Assembly (NCBI GenBank): GCA_905234915.1
Contig: CAJOJP010000009.1
Span: forward strand, 1-33,961
Direction: 5' to 3'
DNA: 33,961 nt
From: Candidatus Gastranaerophilales bacterium
GTDB taxonomy: Bacteria; Cyanobacteriota; Vampirovibrionia; Gastranaerophilales; Gastranaerophilaceae
The notes under the pieces were generated by a model. It ran no database searches and had not been told where the DNA came from. It worked only from the letters and a program-made list of their open reading frames with translations. Made by a program: the position numbers and the translations under genes. Shown one piece after another: positions 3,797 to 29,840 of this stretch; position 1 is the stretch's first letter, and each line of letters opens with the position of its first letter.

Positions 3797-5032
3797 TTAT
3801 ATATTTATTACAAAAACAGTTTCATTTTTATTTGAAGAAATAAGGTTGATATCGCCATTTACCGATTTTAATTGCGCTTTACAAAATGATAAACCGAGTC
3901 CGTTGCCTTTCTCTTTTGTTGTAAAATTTTCTTCAAAAATTCTGGGCTGAACGTTTTTCGGTATTTCTTCCCCGTTATTTTTTATATATATTTTTTTGTC
4001 TTTAGTATTTATTTCTATTTTTTTTGCATGAGCATCAATTGCATTAAATATAATATTTGTTATTGCACATTGAACTTTTACTTTGTCTGTTGTTGCAATT
4101 GTATTATTTAATTCATTTATTATGAGTTCAACACCTGAATTTTCTGTTTTTAATTTACAAAGCTCAACAGTTTCTTCTATTAAATTTTTTATATTTATTT
4201 CTGATTTGAAAGGCTCTGACATACATCTTAAATCATTAATCAAATATGAAATATTTTCGGAGGCAGAGGTAATATTTTTTAGTGCATTTTGTATTGACTT
4301 AATATTTTCTTCGTCGCCTTTAATTTTCGCAAAGCGTTTATTTGCTATTGCAGAATATAAATTAATAATTGAAAGATGATTTTTTATTTCGTGTGAAATA
4401 AATTTAGCTTTATCTTTTACTGTTTGTGCTGTTTTTATTGTATCTTCATCATTTTCCAAACTGATTTTTTCTTTATTATTAAAAATATATTCTTCATTTT
4501 TTGCATTTAACATAGAAGCTATACTCTGTATTGATTTATTTAGGGCAGAATTTTCACGTCTGTCGGGAACATATTTTTTTATATACTCCTGAATATCTTC
4601 TTTTGAATTTTCAGCAATGCTTTTTGCTATATCAAGTATTATTCTTGAATTATATAAAAGGCAGACTCTGGAACTGTCTTTTATTTCACTTTGTGAATAA
4701 TCCCAAATAAGAGCAGCGGAATATCTTCCGCCAAGCACAACTATAAACTCCGTATTATTCCAGATATTATTTTTTTCTAAATTTTTATGTTCCTTTGTAA
4801 TTGGTATATTACTAAAATTATAAATTTGCACTTTTGAAAAAAATAATCTTTTAAAATATGAAGCTTTATCTTCAAAATCAAAGATTCTTAAAAGTATAAC
4901 GGCTTCAACTTTTTGATTTTGAACAAGAGGCTCTAAAACAGCACAAAAGAGATCGTTAACGGTCTCTTTACGATGCGGTTTATCGGAATATTCATATAAG
5001 TAAGTAAGTAAATTATTATATTTATTGTTCAT
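3797..5032 (-). CDS. Sensor histidine kinase (soluble, DICT-like sensory region)
   Basis: 411 aa, no membrane segments. The phospho-acceptor region is 'FISHEIKNHLSIINL' with His about residue 214. The catalytic domain has an N box 'NIIFNAIDAH', a G1-type 'IKNNGEEIP' and a G2 box 'GNGLGLSF'. The N-terminal ~140 residues ('EFIVVLGGRYSAALIWDYS', then 'LLYNSRIILDIAKSI') resemble the DICT sensory region common in cyanobacterial signalling proteins; this is a weak, pattern-based match. It starts 7 bp after the stop of the response regulator gene, so the two form an operon and a cognate pair. A cytoplasmic signal is expected. Confidence 0.85.
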   Translation of the reverse strand: MNNKYNNLLTYLYEYSDKPHRKETVNDLFCAVLEPLVQNQKVEAVILLRIFDFEDKASYFKRLFFSKVQIYNFSNIPITKEHKNLEKNNIWNNTEFIVVLGGRYSAALIWDYSQSEIKDSSRVCLLYNSRIILDIAKSIAENSKEDIQEYIKKYVPDRRENSALNKSIQSIASMLNAKNEEYIFNNKEKISLENDEDTIKTAQTVKDKAKFISHEIKNHLSIINLYSAIANKRFAKIKGDEENIKSIQNALKNITSASENISYLINDLRCMSEPFKSEINIKNLIEETVELCKLKTENSGVELIINELNNTIATTDKVKVQCAITNIIFNAIDAHAKKIEINTKDKKIYIKNNGEEIPKNVQPRIFEENFTTKEKGNGLGLSFCKAQLKSVNGDINLISSNKNETVFVINI

Positions 5033-6771: not shown

Positions 6772-7887
6772 TTAATCTCTGTTTACAATACATTTTGCGA
6801 GTTCAAAATAAGCATCAGCTATTTCAGTGCCTTCGGCAATTTCTTTAATAGTTTTGTTACCGTTCAGTGCATTATTTGAAACAGTATAGTTTTTAGGAAT
6901 TTTCCAAAATATTTCGCGGCTTAAAGAAGTTTGAATTTTTTCTATTTTGTAACTATCTCCTACTGTATATTTATTTAAAATTATTTTCACATTTTTATCT
7001 TTGCAATAAGTTTCTAAATCTTCTTTTATTTTATCAAACGAACTTATTGCAGGGGAAATTATACAAAAAATTTCGTCGGAAAGGTTAATTATTTCTTCAT
7101 TATCAACCGTATCCTCCTCTTGTGATTTATCAATAAGAATATATTTAAAATGATGTTTTAAAATATTCAGAGCATTTTGTAATTTATCTTTTTTTATTAT
7201 GCCCGTTTTATTTTTTGTAAAGCTGTTTGCCATAATATATAGAGATGATTTTTTATAATCTGAAACAGTAGATAAAAGGGCTTGAGCATTATCTTCAGTT
7301 AAATTATTTATGTAATAGCTTGTATTATGCATAATATTAGAATTTAAAAGCAGTGAGATACTTTCCTGCGAGCTGTTAAAATCGAGCAAAAGAACTTTTT
7401 CCAAAGAAATATCAGCTATTTCTTTTGCAAGATTAATCAAAAATCCTGATTTACCCTCGCCTTTACGATTGGAAATTGCCGTAAATATTTTTCCTGCCGC
7501 ATTAATATTCGTTTTATTTATATATTTTTCATAAACAGCCTGAACAGTATTAATAAAATCATCTTTTAACAGAGGTTTTACCAAAAAATCTTTTGCCCCT
7601 GCTCTAAATGCCTTTACCTGTAGATTTGAGCCGCCTTCATAAGACATAGCAATAATTTTAATTTTTCTGCTGCAGCTGTAGTGTGAAATTTCTTTAAAAA
7701 CAGTGTTATCTGTATCATTTATATTCATTAATACTATTTTAGGAATAGTATTATCTTCAAAAACTTCCGGCATAAATTGGTTATATTTTTGCAGATTACA
7801 AGGAAAAGATAAGCCGCTTAAATAGCTTTCTATAAGTGTCGCTGTAAGTTCTTCTTCATCAAATATGATAATATCGACATTTTCCAT
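6772..7887 (-). CDS. CpaE/TadZ-like protein (degenerate receiver + MinD-type ATPase)
   Basis: 371 aa. Residues 1-120 form a receiver-like domain in which the phospho-acceptor Asp is replaced by Asn ('IVLMNIND', N55) while K104 ('LVKPLL') remains, as in TadZ/CpaE proteins. Residues ~132-365 form a MinD/ParA-type ATPase with deviant Walker A 'RKGEGKSGFL' (141-150), 'VLLLDFNSS' and 'YILIDKS'. The 'FWKIPKNYTVSNNALNG' segment corresponds to the CpaE C-terminus. CpaE/TadZ localises Tad pilus assembly machinery. Here the only neighbour of that system is the degenerate CpaF-like gene; no pilin, prepilin peptidase or TadB/C is in the window. No Shine-Dalgarno is seen before the ATG, so a leaderless mRNA is possible. 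Confidence 0.75.
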   Translation of the reverse strand: MENVDIIIFDEEELTATLIESYLSGLSFPCNLQKYNQFMPEVFEDNTIPKIVLMNINDTDNTVFKEISHYSCSRKIKIIAMSYEGGSNLQVKAFRAGAKDFLVKPLLKDDFINTVQAVYEKYINKTNINAAGKIFTAISNRKGEGKSGFLINLAKEIADISLEKVLLLDFNSSQESISLLLNSNIMHNTSYYINNLTEDNAQALLSTVSDYKKSSLYIMANSFTKNKTGIIKKDKLQNALNILKHHFKYILIDKSQEEDTVDNEEIINLSDEIFCIISPAISSFDKIKEDLETYCKDKNVKIILNKYTVGDSYKIEKIQTSLSREIFWKIPKNYTVSNNALNGNKTIKEIAEGTEIADAYFELAKCIVNRD

Positions 7888-14074: not shown

Positions 14075-15409
14075 TTGACAGACTCCTTAATATCAGATAC
14101 AAAACAAGAATTTCCGGAGTATCTTGATAATAATGAAAAAACAGAGTTAAAAGATGAAATAGCTGACTCTTTAATAGAAAATGTAAAAAAAGATAAGTCC
14201 CAAAAAACACAGGAAATGCTCAATAGTTTAAAAAATACAGTTAAAATTGATGAACAATTAAATGTAAATACTGTAAATAAAAATATAGATGATTATATGA
14301 ATAAAGTAGGTAAAGAGATTTTGAAAAATGATGCAGCTCATAAAAATAAAAATCCGCTTGCCAAAAATCGTTCCTATAGACTCCAAAATTATTTCAATGA
14401 CTTGAACAAAGATAATTTAACAGGTTTGGATAAAGAACTCTATGATGTATTGAATGAAGGAAACAGACTTCCTGATTTAGAAGAAAAATTAAAAAGGATA
14501 GAAATTAATAAAGATGCCGAGGAAGGCGAATATTCCGAATTGGCATTAAATAAAAGTGAATTAAATAAACTTATACAAAAATATTCAAATGAAAAAATTT
14601 CCTGGAAAGAAATGCCCGAATTTATAAATACTTTAAATAATGTTCTTAATACTGTTGAAGATATAGAAAAGTGTCATGGCGATATAAATTCAAAACAAAA
14701 AGACATCGATGATACAATTATTGACAAGTTAGAACGAAAAGATAACACCGGCAGAAGATGCTGGAATATTACGCAGGGTGATCCTGTTGCTGCAAATATA
14801 GATAATCACGTTAGACAAGGTGAAGTGGATTATCATACCGGTCAAATTACAGGATGTCACAGTAAAGAATTTTTAGATAAATTATTTACCGATGACTCTG
14901 TTACAACAATTAATTTCCCTCGTAAAGGCAGTAATGAGTTAATAGAGGCAGAAGTAGTTAATCGAACAGCCGATGAAATTCACATAAAAATCCCTAATGA
15001 TAACGGATATGCATACAATGTTATTAAGCGTAATAATGAAAATGCATTTTCAAAATATAACTTTAAATTTTATAAATATGAAGAAGATTATAATAATAGG
15101 ACTAAACCTACAGATGAAAATGCAAAATCTGTAATGCCCGAAAATGTTATAAAACAGATAGAAGAAAAATTGGAAAATAAAGAAATCGAAATTGTAGAAG
15201 ATGAAATAAAAAATCCTATTACAAAAAAGATAATTAATAAAAAAATATTTGCAGTACTTGATAATAAAAATAATATGCACTATTTTCAGGTACAAAAAGA
15301 AAATGACGGTAATGTCAGTTCATTTTATCCGATTGCTTCAGGCGAAGTTAATCCGAAAATGAAAAAATATTTCCAATATATGTATAGTTCTAAAGATATT
15401 GTATGGTAA
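14075..15409 (+). CDS. C-terminal part with EndoU-like RNase domain (putative toxin)
   Basis: 444 aa from a TTG at 14075, in the same frame as the preceding gene and separated from it only by TAA plus three codons. No Shine-Dalgarno precedes the TTG, arguing against independent translation; the next ATG is at residue 48. The first ~220 residues are charged and helical. At 245-262 'HVRQGEVDYHTGQITGCH' matches the bacterial EndoU signature HxxxGE...GxxxGxH, with the two catalytic His (H245, H262) 17 apart. K305 is a possible third catalytic residue. EndoU domains are common RNase warheads of LXG and CdiA polymorphic toxins. Fold assignment is by motif; the ~180 residues after the second His are somewhat longer than usual. 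Confidence 0.55.
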   Translation: MTDSLISDTKQEFPEYLDNNEKTELKDEIADSLIENVKKDKSQKTQEMLNSLKNTVKIDEQLNVNTVNKNIDDYMNKVGKEILKNDAAHKNKNPLAKNRSYRLQNYFNDLNKDNLTGLDKELYDVLNEGNRLPDLEEKLKRIEINKDAEEGEYSELALNKSELNKLIQKYSNEKISWKEMPEFINTLNNVLNTVEDIEKCHGDINSKQKDIDDTIIDKLERKDNTGRRCWNITQGDPVAANIDNHVRQGEVDYHTGQITGCHSKEFLDKLFTDDSVTTINFPRKGSNELIEAEVVNRTADEIHIKIPNDNGYAYNVIKRNNENAFSKYNFKFYKYEEDYNNRTKPTDENAKSVMPENVIKQIEEKLENKEIEIVEDEIKNPITKKIINKKIFAVLDNKNNMHYFQVQKENDGNVSSFYPIASGEVNPKMKKYFQYMYSSKDIVW

Positions 15410-18798: not shown

Positions 18799-20063
18799 CA
18801 AGACCTATGAATATTACGGAAAAGATTTTAGCTGAACACTCCGGACTTGATGAAGTACATGCAGGAGAGTTAATTACTGCAAAAGTCGATATAACGCTTG
18901 CTAATGATATAACAGGTCCTGTTGCCGTAAATGAGTTTAACAAAATTGGAGTTGAAAAAGTTTTTGATAAAAAAAGGGTTGTATTTGTAGGTGATCATTT
19001 TGTGCCTAATCGTGATATAAAATCAGCAGAGCAAATGAAACTGATACGTGAATTTTCTCATAAACACGATATAGAGCATTTTTTTGAAGTCGGCAGAATG
19101 GGTATTGAGCACGCATTATTGCCTGATAAAGGTATAGTTACGGCAGGTGATATTGTTATAGGAGCAGATTCTCATACCTGCACTTATGGAGCAATAGGCG
19201 CATTTTCAACCGGCATGGGTTCTACAGATATTGCCTGTGCAATGGCATCAGGTGATACCTGGCTTAAAGTACCTTCTGCTATTAAGGTTGAATTTAACGG
19301 TAAACTTAATAAATGGGTAACAGCAAAAGATTTAATTCTTTATTTAATAGGTCAAATCGGTGTGGATGGTGCATTATATAAAACACTGGAAATTGGAGGT
19401 TCCGCTATACGGGAAATGCCAATGGACGGAAGATTTACAATTTGCAATATGGCAATTGAAGCAGGAGCAAAAAACGGTATTATTGAACCTGATGAAAGAA
19501 CAAAAAAGTATCTTGAAAAAAGAAGTATAAGGACTCCTAAATTTTATTCAAGCGATAAAGATGCTCAGTATGAAAAAGTTATTACATACAATGTAGAAGA
19601 AATAGAGCCTGTTGTTGCATTTCCTCATTTACCGGAAAATACAAAACCTGTTTCTAAAGCAGGAAATATAAAAATTGATCAGGCTGTAATCGGAAGCTGT
19701 ACAAACGGGAGATTATCCGATATAAAAGCTGCTGCCGAAATTTTAAAAGGGAAAAAAGTACATAAAAATGTTCGTTTAATTGTTTTTCCGGCAACTCAAG
19801 AAATATATCTGGAAGCAATAAGGGCAGGATATATAGAAACAATTATAGAAGCAGGCGGAGCTGTATCAACTCCAACCTGCGGGCCATGTCTGGGGGGACA
19901 CTCGGGTATTCTTGCATCAGGAGAACGTGCAATTTCAACCACGAACAGGAATTTTGTCGGCAGAATGGGACATACCGAAAGTGAAGTGTATTTAGCATCA
20001 CCATATATTGCGGCAGCAAGTGCAATTGCGGGAAAAATAGCGTCGCCTGAGGATATTGCATAA
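18795..20063 (+). CDS. leuC: 3-isopropylmalate dehydratase large subunit (LeuC/homoaconitase-like)
   Basis: 422 aa, the length of the prokaryotic two-subunit form. [4Fe-4S] ligands are C302 ('[10 protein letters not shown]') and C362/C365 ('[13 protein letters not shown]'). Other aconitase-family blocks are 'GDHFVPNRD', '[15 protein letters not shown]' and '[15 protein letters not shown]'. It isomerises 2- and 3-isopropylmalate in leucine synthesis, although a homoaconitase-like substrate cannot be excluded. The ATGA overlap with nrdG shows co-translation with the reductase genes, an unusual partner. The small subunit leuD is not in this window: the next gene is convergent. Confidence 0.9.
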
Positions 20064-22726: not shown

Positions 22727-22770
22727 AAATATACTTCCTGATGTATATATTAACTTTAATAGTCTAATAT
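22727..22770 (+). repeat. Dispersed repeat A, copy 1 (44 bp)
   Basis: AAATATACTTCCTGATGTAT followed by ATATTAACTTTAATAGTCTAATAT (written in parts) recurs at 26969-27010 in the same orientation, with only a 2-bp AT difference. The first half contains the hairpin ATATAC/GTATAT. The two copies bracket the yhaN-yhaO operon. Confidence 0.85.
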
Positions 22771-26968: not shown

Positions 26969-27010
26969 AAATATACTTCCTGATGTATATTAACTTTAAT
27001 AGTCTAATAT
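26969..27010 (+). repeat. Dispersed repeat A, copy 2 (42 bp)
   Basis: Same sequence and orientation as 22727-22770, minus 2 bp. It lies upstream of yhaO and of the divergent 566-aa gene. The DNA just before it (26941-26960, ATTGTGCCGGTTCATAATAA) also recurs at 7924-7942 upstream of the CpaE-like gene with one mismatch over the first 19 bases. Confidence 0.85.
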
Positions 27011-27105
27011 GTATTTAAATTATAATAAATATTTTTAGCAAAAAAAATTTTTTTTGTTTTTATTACGAGCAGAAGATTGAAAAATATAAGAAAGGAATGT
27101 ATAAA

Positions 27106-28806
27106 ATGGAAACCGGAAAAATCGGGGCAGTTTTGTATTCTGCTGATTTACTTTATAAAAAACCGATGCAATACAGCAGTAAAAATAATAATTTGAATAA
27201 TGAACACAAAAAATTTGAATTTCCCTCATATAATTTTTATAATGCCATAGCTTTTACGGGCGGTAAAAGTATGAATTTAGCGGATACCAAAAGGCAATTA
27301 GATAAATATAACGCTTACCCTTCCGAAGGACTGAGAGAAGAAATTAACGAAACCTTGGAAAAAGGTAATCCGGATAAAAAACTGCTTTTAGATATTCACC
27401 GGGAGTATTATTCCGATTTGAAAGACTGTAAAGAGTTATCAGATGTAACAATATATGATGAATTTAAAGATGTACTCTCTGATTCTGATAAAAGGGTCAG
27501 CTACCAAAAAGGCTCTTTTATAGATAAAGTTAAACACGGTGAAATAAAAGGCTTTGACCCTGATACCGATGTTTCTTTGCAGCTTCTTCAATTATACTGG
27601 GGCGAAGGGTTTTCACTTACCGCACTTCAAAAAGAATACGGTCAGAATATTGACGGAGTTTTAGATAAATTACAAATACCGAAAGTAAACAGAGTTTACG
27701 GACAGTATTTAAAGCTTTCAGATAAAGATTATAATGATAAATTTTCCGCATTTATGTCACAGAGAGCTAAAGAAATTGAACATAAAAAATCGTCTGCTAA
27801 AGTTGAAAACAAATCGGCAGAAAGTACGCAAGAAGCTGCTTCAAAAACAAGAATAAGTTCACCCGGAAGACCAATGAGCGAAGAACATAAACAGGCTATA
27901 AGAGAAGGAATAAAAAGAGGTTCTATTGAAAATCCCGAAAAAATAGCAGAGCTCACTTCATCCAAAAAAGAATTTTTTGAAAAAAACCCTGAAGAAAGCG
28001 AAAGATTTTCTCAGGTTTTACTAAGAGCCTGGAGCTATAAAGAGGCAGACTCCATAAAAAAGAGTATGTCTAAATTTATGAAAAAAAATTACGTAAAAAA
28101 CAGTGAAGATTTAATTAACGATACTCGCAGCAATGTAAGTTTGAAAGATTTCTGGGATAAAAATAACTGGGCAAGAAAGAGATTTTCCCTGTGTATGAAA
28201 AAATCCTGGGCAAGACAGGAGGAACTTTCACAAATGGGGCTTATATATGAACCGTTGTTTGTTGGAACATTAATGCCTAAGAGTTTAATAAAAGAACTTT
28301 CTAAGGATTTACAAATGCCTGATTTACAAAACGGATTTCAATATATAATCAAAGACCCGAGAGAAAAAGAGCATATTGAAGAAACACCAAAAATATACGA
28401 AAAACCTATATTAGTATCCTCAATAATAGACGATAATTTGGAAAAATACGGAATGTTATATCATAAATGGGGAACAGCAATGAGTTTCGGCATTCATAAA
28501 ACCATTGAAAAATATAAAAGTTCAGGTAAAGATATAGAACAATATGAACAACTTTTAAAAGTTTATATGGAGGAATCAAAATCAAATCAGCAAATGACTC
28601 CATTGAATTTTTATAAACAATTTATTGAAACCTGCCAAAAAAACGGAGATATTGAATTTATAAAAGAAGTTGATGACAATATTAACAGCTGTTTTGATAA
28701 ACTTAAAGATAAAAATGCAATGGAATCAATTAAATATTTAACTAAAGAATATGATAGTTTATTGAAAAAATATTACGGAAAAAGACTTGCCGTTGTGGAA
28801 TTTTAG
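27106..28806 (+). CDS. Hypothetical protein with Asn-rich leader and NUMOD-like segment
   Basis: 566 aa from ATG 27106 with AAAGGA 9 nt upstream; an ATG three codons earlier overlaps that site. The first ~55 residues form an Asn/Lys/Tyr-rich leader ending 'YNAIAFTGGKS'. Around residue 250 'GRPMSEEHKQAIREGIKRG' resembles the NUMOD3-type DNA-binding segment of homing-nuclease-associated proteins. Charged helical repeats follow ('NNWARKRFSLCMKKSWARQE'). No signal peptide, membrane helix or nuclease motif. The last 9 codons and the stop fall in the 44-bp direct repeat that flanks the ParDE cassette, so the gene end was copied or preserved by that event. Function unknown. Confidence 0.75.
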   Translation: METGKIGAVLYSADLLYKKPMQYSSKNNNLNNEHKKFEFPSYNFYNAIAFTGGKSMNLADTKRQLDKYNAYPSEGLREEINETLEKGNPDKKLLLDIHREYYSDLKDCKELSDVTIYDEFKDVLSDSDKRVSYQKGSFIDKVKHGEIKGFDPDTDVSLQLLQLYWGEGFSLTALQKEYGQNIDGVLDKLQIPKVNRVYGQYLKLSDKDYNDKFSAFMSQRAKEIEHKKSSAKVENKSAESTQEAASKTRISSPGRPMSEEHKQAIREGIKRGSIENPEKIAELTSSKKEFFEKNPEESERFSQVLLRAWSYKEADSIKKSMSKFMKKNYVKNSEDLINDTRSNVSLKDFWDKNNWARKRFSLCMKKSWARQEELSQMGLIYEPLFVGTLMPKSLIKELSKDLQMPDLQNGFQYIIKDPREKEHIEETPKIYEKPILVSSIIDDNLEKYGMLYHKWGTAMSFGIHKTIEKYKSSGKDIEQYEQLLKVYMEESKSNQQMTPLNFYKQFIETCQKNGDIEFIKEVDDNINSCFDKLKDKNAMESIKYLTKEYDSLLKKYYGKRLAVVEF

Positions 28807-28821
28807 TTGAATTGTTTTAAT
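28778..28821 (+). repeat. 44-bp direct repeat, left copy (gene 3' end)
   Basis: Begins GAAAAAGACTTGCCGTTGTG and covers the last codons (encoding RLAVVEF), the stop and 15 bp downstream of the 566-aa gene. It is identical at all 44 positions to 29418-29461; identity stops abruptly on both sides. Confidence 0.95.
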
Positions 28822-28827
28822 TGATAA

Positions 28828-29127
28828 TTAGTTTAATACTGCTAAAATATTTTGATATCTTGTTAATATCCTTAATATTTCAATTTTATCGAAATTAATT
28901 CTGTAAACTATAGCAAAGTTTTTCTTCATTATATAAATACGAACGGTTTTGTCGATTAAACCGTTCTTTTTTGTACCTGCCATAGGAAATTTTGATAACA
29001 ATTCAAACGTCTTATAAAAATTGTCTGCAATCAAAAAAGATGCAGACTTATTATCTTTAGCAATATATTCCGTTATTTGGGATATATCTGCTTTGGCTAT
29101 ATCTGTTATAAAAATAGCTTTATTCAT
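28828..29127 (-). CDS. parE: RelE/ParE-family toxin
   Basis: 99 aa. The ParE/RelE fold pattern is clear: 'ITDIAKADISQITEYIAKDN' (N-terminal helices), 'FELLSKFPMAGTKK', 'RIYIMKKNFAIVYRINFDKI' (beta sheet) and 'EILRILTRYQN' at the C-terminus. ParE-type members poison DNA gyrase and RelE-type cleave mRNA; the helical start and 'PMAGT' favour the ParE side. The start overlaps the antitoxin end by 8 bp. Only 6 bp separate its stop from the left 44-bp repeat. Confidence 0.88.
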   Translation of the reverse strand: MNKAIFITDIAKADISQITEYIAKDNKSASFLIADNFYKTFELLSKFPMAGTKKNGLIDKTVRIYIMKKNFAIVYRINFDKIEILRILTRYQNILAVLN

Positions 29128-29365
29128 ACTTAGCCTTTAATTCGTTCAAAAATTCAAATGCATCAGAAACATTACCTTTATTTGCGTCATCTATTCCTTT
29201 TTGAATATCGGCATTAAGCATATCAAGCTCCTCTTTAGAGATACAATCTTTTGCCAGTACTATGGAAAGAGTTGCATTAATTGCTTCATTTAATGAATCA
29301 TACAAACCCTCGGCAACTTTTATACGCAAAAATCTTTCAATATCGGGTGATAATGATATATCCAT
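29120..29365 (-). CDS. parD: ParD-like antitoxin
   Basis: 81 aa. 'DISLSPDIERFLRIKVAEGL' followed by 'YDSLNEAINATLSIV' is the ribbon-helix-helix dimerisation/DNA-binding domain of ParD antitoxins. The acidic C-terminus ('DAFEFLNELKAKYE') would wrap the toxin. AAAGGA precedes the ATG. It is first in the antitoxin-toxin operon and likely represses its own promoter. Confidence 0.85.
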   Translation of the reverse strand: MDISLSPDIERFLRIKVAEGLYDSLNEAINATLSIVLAKDCISKEELDMLNADIQKGIDDANKGNVSDAFEFLNELKAKYE

Positions 29366-29394
29366 CTGATAGTCCTTTATTTTATTTTTATATA

Positions 29395-29400
29395 ATTATA
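29395..29400 (-). promoter_or_regulatory. -10 box of the ParDE operon
   Basis: TATAAT on the minus strand inside the palindrome TATAATTATA (29391-29400), ~30 nt before the antitoxin ATG. The palindrome could also be the antitoxin operator. The -35 region would lie at the edge of the right 44-bp repeat. Confidence 0.5.
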
Positions 29401-29417
29401 TCAAAAAATTTATGTGA

Positions 29418-29461
29418 GAAAAAGACTTGCCGTTGTGGAATTTTAGTTGAATTGTTTTAAT
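29418..29461 (+). repeat. 44-bp direct repeat, right copy
   Basis: Perfect copy of 28778-28821, offset by exactly 640 bp and located just behind the antitoxin promoter. It carries a detached fragment of the 566-aa gene's 3' end with no reading function here. The MITE-like element starts within 2-7 bp of its end. Confidence 0.95.
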
Positions 29462-29462
29462 G

Positions 29463-29716
29463 TAGTATAACGTTCTGTAATTAACTGGACTTTTTATTTC
29501 CGAAATTTTAGAATACTGCAAAAAGAAAACACTTTTCGGAGCTGTTACACCCGCTTATTTCTTAAGCCGCACCAGCTATTTTTTTATTATTGATAAAAAA
29601 TAAATTAATGTAGCAAGGTGCTTGCTAAAGAAATGCGCGTGCTCAATGCTCTTCAAAGTATTTTCTTTTTTTCATTTTTTATTTCAAAAAGTCCAATTAT
29701 TTAAGGAACGCTCTAG
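29463..29716 (+). mobile_element. MITE-like element (~250 bp) with ~30-bp terminal inverted repeats
   Basis: The left end TATAACGTTCTGTAATTAAC then TGGACTTTTT (from 29466) is matched by the reverse complement of the right end, TAGAGCGTTCCTTAAATAAT then TGGACTTTTT (from 29715 leftward), at about three quarters of positions. TA dinucleotides border both ends, as expected for a Tc1/mariner-IS630 type target duplication. No transposase frame fits inside. The first 98 bp are identical at 33864-33961. Confidence 0.7.
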
Positions 29717-29840
29717 TGGTTATGTTATAATAAATTTATGGATGATAACAAATATGAATGATTTAAAAATTAAAGCTATTGAATTAAAAGTTTATCCGTA
29801 AAAATTGATAAATTAGTAAAGTTTGTGGAGAAACAATGAA

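Follow-up and report, generated by a model that had tools for sequence, protein, structure and literature searches.

Cis-mobilisable elements are integrase-free islands that lie between att repeats at transfer RNA (tRNA) genes, while integron cassettes and pdif modules that carry toxin-antitoxin (TA) genes are small mobile TA units between repeated sites. Type II TA modules also occupy intergenic positions in chromosomes, for example ccdO157 at folA-apaH and parDE at relA-mazG, and a 2020 review states that the integration of solitary TA modules into chromosomes remains unelucidated (PMC7167474). Restriction-modification genes are reported to become inserted with target duplications that are long, often near 100 bp in order of magnitude, and variable (PMC3874152 and PMC3031569, after Nobusato et al. 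2000 and Furuta et al. 2010). Here we describe a parDE unit bracketed by a perfect 44-bp direct repeat in a Candidatus Gastranaerophilales bacterium. The window analysed is the entire contig CAJOJP010000009.1 (C9; 33,961 nucleotides) of a 2.5-Mb genome assembled in 146 contigs. We consider it probable, at roughly three chances in four, that a parDE unit of about 600 bp was inserted at the 3' end of a gene for a 569-amino-acid (aa) protein and duplicated 44 bp of its target. The end of the gene would have stayed intact because the insertion duplicated this segment.

A parDE unit between two copies of a gene end

The locus consists of the following features.

27097 to 28806, + strand: host gene for an uncharacterised 569-aa protein (566 aa from the second ATG), from the open reading frame (ORF) list; the target that was duplicated is probably its 3' end
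28778 to 28821, no strand assigned: left repeat copy, including the host gene's last codons and stop
28828 to 29127, - strand: parE toxin gene, 99 aa (PF05016, 2.3e-10; 73 relatives)
29120 to 29365, - strand: parD-type antitoxin gene, 81 aa, from the ORF list and by similarity to a ParD that passes PF03693
29366 to 29417, - strand: parD upstream region, with a TATAAT-like hexamer at 29395-29400 and no call from the promoter scan
29418 to 29461, no strand assigned: right repeat copy, identical to the left copy

A sequence-only reading of the window had reported the repeat, and its coordinates and identity are borne out: the two 44-nt copies lie at an offset of 640 and differ at no position. That reading also described a cassette with little besides parD and parE, whose toxin stop lies 6 bp from the left copy, which keeps the gene end, and this description is correct. 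Only parD and parE are encoded between the repeats among ORFs of at least 60 aa, with no transposase and no integrase; the two genes overlap by 8 bp, and 52 bp separate parD from the right copy. The left copy begins within a glycine codon, continues through the codons for KRLAVVEF and the stop, and extends 15 bp past the host ORF. The host gene length of 566 aa given earlier holds as a count from the second ATG, the ORF itself being 569 aa long.

A whole-genome pattern search allowing up to 3 mismatches over the 2.5 Mb recovered exactly these two copies of the 44-mer, and the reversed 44-mer, used as a control, gave no match. No copy occurs in 382 further genomes of the family, nor is its exact 26-nt core present in GTDB contigs or its exact 22-nt core in IMG/VR.

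The ParE protein matches PF05016 with 41.3 bits (cut-off 23), and a profile built from its relatives has a match in PDB 6x0a, which is a plasmid stabilization system. The window ParD has no Pfam hit over the cut-off; it shares 42% identity over 81 aa with a ParD that passes PF03693, and 40% with the ParD of a related cassette, L230. The pair is predicted to form a minimal type II TA operon. An antitoxin promoter abutting the right repeat, also suggested earlier, stands only as far as the TATAAT-like hexamer; the would-be -35 element, formed by the first 6 bases of the right repeat, matches at 2 of 6 positions. On the host gene's strand, a strong terminator-like stem-loop with a T run (28941-28966) falls inside the parE coding sequence.

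Related cassettes, their repeats and their empty sites

A profile search with ParE recovered 69 loci from GTDB genomes and another 4 from IMG/VR, most of them belonging to Gastranaerophilales of the gut or rumen; a tblastn search for parE in plasmids or phages gave no match. Direct repeats of at least 18 nt bracket 7 of 61 usable parDE loci, compared with 2 of 415 control ORFs, which are other ORFs of the same loci with comparable windows (Fisher p=1.2e-5). When gaps are admitted, the clearest repeat pairs are those at L230 (77 bp, 95% identical), L223 (63 bp), L251 (63-66 bp), L248 (45 bp), L274 from Fodinibius (46-47 bp), L240 (39 bp), L263 (37-38 bp), L262 (33 bp), and L224 (69-76 bp). The duplicated segment is the last ~60 bp of a convergent gene at L223, the end of the upstream gene at L251, a terminator plus the end of a convergent gene at L230, and the 3' end of a tRNA-Ser gene, within which the repeat starts, at L224. 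Longer direct repeats are present farther out around parDE at L233 (197 bp), L283 (120 bp), and L253 (96 bp), and no bracketing repeats were found around the other parDE of the window's genome.

One large subfamily of these cassettes delimits the mobile unit. Its parDE DNA of ~650 bp is 80-96% identical between loci, and homology starts ~340 bp ahead of the parE match and runs to 5-48 bp past the stop, reaching +73 only in L262 and L263. Outside the parDE unit, most pairs of loci share no DNA. Because the homology stops there and the flanks differ, the naked ~650-bp unit is what moves and the repeats are external to it. Naked parDE DNA of this family is present at dozens of unrelated sites. 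The window cassette belongs to the family at a greater distance (68% protein identity to L221; 73% DNA identity over 562 bp). Repeats of different loci have no common core, except for a hairpin motif in L248, L262, and L263, which in the L248 and L262 repeats reads TGACATTTAGTCA and then, in both, CGGCAGAGTGA. This motif may represent a dispersed element that is favoured as a target. Short repeats within the cassette ends (TTTATTTATA in some) are no commoner than at other loci.

The targets are many, and gene 3' ends are favoured among them, tRNA 3' ends strikingly so. Among 62 Gastranaerophilales or viral loci, with loci of a common site counted separately, in 14 the 3' end of a tRNA gene no more than 700 bp away points towards the cassette, and in none does a tRNA 5' end do so; the value for random positions in the window's genome is 1.2% in either orientation (p=1.8e-14). 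Neighbours in general, tRNA included, face the cassette 53 times by their 3' end and 38 times by their 5' end; the corresponding numbers for other intergenic gaps are 81 and 125 (p=0.0035).

Comparison of filled and empty sites supports insertion of a sister cassette with duplication of its target. For L230, the two flanks were joined with one repeat copy into a 952-nt query and searched over the family genomes. In genome G262 the match coordinates describe a single piece, 1-952 in 952 bases at 98%. In the occupied genome G339 the match is split into 1-429 and 353-952; these two pieces share exactly the 77-bp repeat and are separated by 688 bp. The joined flanks also have a one-piece match in the more distant G145, G375, and G371. 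An empty site with a single repeat copy, the comparison that the sequence-only reading had proposed, thus exists for this sister cassette; none was found for the window itself.

Other sites were tested in the same way as one joined query, with L243 and L229 excluded. At L262, about ten genomes match without a break through one repeat copy and end 19 bp into the far flank. In relatives of L223, the right-hand gene ends in the repeat sequence, so the right copy is probably the native one.

The same architecture is found in the window's genome around other cargo. We screened 4,100 ORFs of 55-450 aa, in partly overlapping stretches covering ~2.17 Mb, for a direct repeat common to the 75 bp downstream of the stop and the 350 bp upstream of the start. 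Two genes for small XRE regulators (PF01381) and the window parE emerged as real outliers, their exact cores measuring 49, 48, and 44 nt. The remaining matches were 44 nt and 23 nt long in a repetitive coding region, and all others were at most 20 nt. In the three outliers the repeat sets in 2, 6, and 6 bp after the cargo stop, and the cargo is always convergent to the strand of the duplicated gene. In L097 (C18:7001-27000), a 73-aa XRE gene lies between repeats at 3837-3952 and 4293-4407 that correspond to the 3' end of another XRE gene, to which it is convergent; the right copy includes a start codon and can be read as an ORF of 35 aa. In L187 (C86), the 5' part of a HAD-like gene is repeated at 7069-7189 and 7531-7649 around a 74-aa XRE gene. 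The joined flanks of L187 have one uninterrupted match (3-636, 77%) in G009, a genome of the same genus, which indicates that this XRE cassette is an insertion. Both flanks of L097 were located in G009 as well, on different contigs.

A proposed route of entry and its alternatives

That a minimal TA unit was inserted at the 3' end of a gene without a recombinase of its own, as the sequence-only reading envisaged, is thus supported by related cassettes at unrelated sites, by the enrichment of repeats, and by the empty site of a sister cassette. A plausible sequence of events can be outlined. DNA bearing parDE would enter the cell as plasmid, phage, or free DNA, and could be captured at a break or at paired staggered nicks, tens of bp apart, near the 3' end of a transcript. 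Filling in of both ends would then produce a long duplication of variable length, and no enzyme encoded by the unit would be needed. Post-segregational killing by ParE would subsequently select against deletion between the repeats. Microhomology-driven template switching would have an equivalent outcome, indistinguishable from that of fill-in. It is also possible, at odds a little short of even, that parDE and the lone XRE cassettes form one recombinase-free mobile class with a single shared, laboratory-reproducible mechanism, a preference for transcript 3' ends (tRNA foremost), and duplications of ~33-120 bp.

Several points weigh against insertion by target duplication. At 54 of the 61 parDE loci the bracketing repeat is below 18 nt, so either the repeats decay or other routes exist. 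The L235 repeat occurs four times in its locus which, with the motif common to L248, L262, and L263, means that dispersed repeats may account for some of the pairs. A search of the genus did not reveal an empty site for the window itself, because the 569-aa gene is poorly conserved there: orthologues are present in four genus members, and their C-termini differ in sequence yet end near the same point. The enzymatic step is one that we infer. Finally, the right repeat ends exactly where the target duplication of a neighbouring miniature inverted-repeat transposable element (MITE) begins, a coincidence that stands outside the explanation.

The main rival is integration in trans, in which a tyrosine recombinase encoded elsewhere would insert parDE as a circle at the 3' ends of genes, with the repeats as attL and attR. 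It holds this rank because of the tRNA bias (14 of 62 cassettes have the 3' end of an upstream tRNA facing them) and because of an integrase-free island at a tRNA-Ser gene of the same genome. In this island (L091, C6:20001-40000), the tRNA-Ser 3' end is repeated at 15079-15155 and 19755-19831, with 69 bp exact, around ~4.7 kb that hold methyltransferase-like and nuclease-like genes (judged by eye), a restriction-modification island without an integrase. Seven PF00589 matches in the genome, repeat lengths of 33-77 bp that would suit att blocks, and the start of the L224 repeat inside tRNA-Ser point in the same direction. However, near-identical cassettes are bracketed by different repeats that share no core, so the cassette has no fixed attP; most repeats lie at protein gene ends or terminators; and no integrase was found between the repeats of the cassettes examined. 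Classical site-specific integration, which the sequence-only reading had offered as one source of the structure, is not supported in view of the first of these points, and we regard a recombinase acting in trans as unlikely. Two related signatures were also absent: the 44-mer does not fold as an attC hairpin (z=+1.23), and the best match in the window to the 28-bp XerC/XerD site of Escherichia coli dif is 14/28, other sites reaching 11-17/28.

Homology-facilitated illegitimate recombination is still less probable. Here a donor carrying a gene end plus parDE would recombine through homology at one flank and through end joining at the opposite one, and the two repeats would be the donor and recipient alleles. 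Copies that diverge by a few percent at several loci (94.8% identity in L230, 96.6% in L097, ~90% in L187) look like such alleles, and variable repeat lengths would be accounted for. But for every site a donor would need to have acquired parDE beforehand at that very gene end, almost all sites are different, and the copies in the window are identical.

The MITE itself suggests another possibility, namely that a transposase nick at its boundary opened the site, and that repair joined parDE and copied 44 bp. The relevant features, on which the sequence-only reading is silent, follow the right repeat directly.

29462 to 29465, no strand assigned: left 4-bp target duplication of the MITE (GTAG), from the MITE flank alignment; most other copies have CTAG
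29466 to 29715, + strand: MITE, present in ~50 copies in the genome; its right-hand target duplication is GTGG at 29716-29719

The last base of the right repeat abuts the first base of this target duplication, for which a rough chance estimate is 1e-4 to 5e-4. Against this, no duplicated flank was found at any other MITE copy in the genome, both XRE cassettes of the genome lack an adjoining MITE, and the MITE may have been inserted later. We give MITE breakage very little credence. A second MITE copy, from 33864, runs off the end of the contig. Elsewhere in the window, direct repeats of ~44 bp (22727-22770 and 26969-27010) surround an SbcC/SbcD-like gene pair; as an insertion scar they were rejected, since they belong to a dispersed repeat of ~20 copies, many near contig ends.

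Least credible of all is an assembly artefact or the remnant of a tandem gene duplication with parDE between the copies: the assembly is in 146 contigs, but ordinary short reads, being longer than 44 bp, can span both junctions, the same structure recurs in independent assemblies, and the gene is repeated over no more than 44 bp, which also lends no support to the decayed second paralogue that the sequence-only reading had considered as a source of the right copy, the one other paralogue found being 25% identical and on a different contig.

Comparison with known mobile units

The parDE cassettes resemble several described systems in part. Like cis-mobilisable islands, they have direct repeats at gene 3' ends and no integrase inside; unlike them, they are much smaller, use many targets, and lack a common att core. 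Integron cassettes and pdif modules differ in that the 44-mer here contains no attC hairpin, no core is shared across sites, and there is no dif-like site. In a literature search, with most subscription journals outside its coverage, no paper emerged that describes TA modules flanked by long target duplications.

The chromosomal ccdO157 and parDE modules (PMC7167474) are likewise solitary, intergenic, and present or absent by strain; the cassettes described here differ in showing their insertion scar. Long duplications at filled sites, together with empty sites, offer a concrete and testable scar for the entry of TA units into chromosomes, and the similar placement of parDE relatives in many gut bacteria gives a rare view of such entry. 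Target duplication would explain how a TA unit lands at a gene end without harm to the host gene. The duplication would also be a built-in route of loss, one that the toxin would punish.

The closest known process is the insertion of restriction-modification genes with long target duplication, to which TA mobility would then be tied. As reported for those genes (PMC3874152, PMC3031569), both concern an addiction-type unit without a linked transposase, with long and variable duplications and a history deduced from genome comparison. The cassettes described here differ in their cargo, a type II TA pair or a lone XRE gene of 0.3-0.8 kb, in their strong bias toward tRNA and gene 3' ends, and in their occurrence in Gastranaerophilales and not in Helicobacter.
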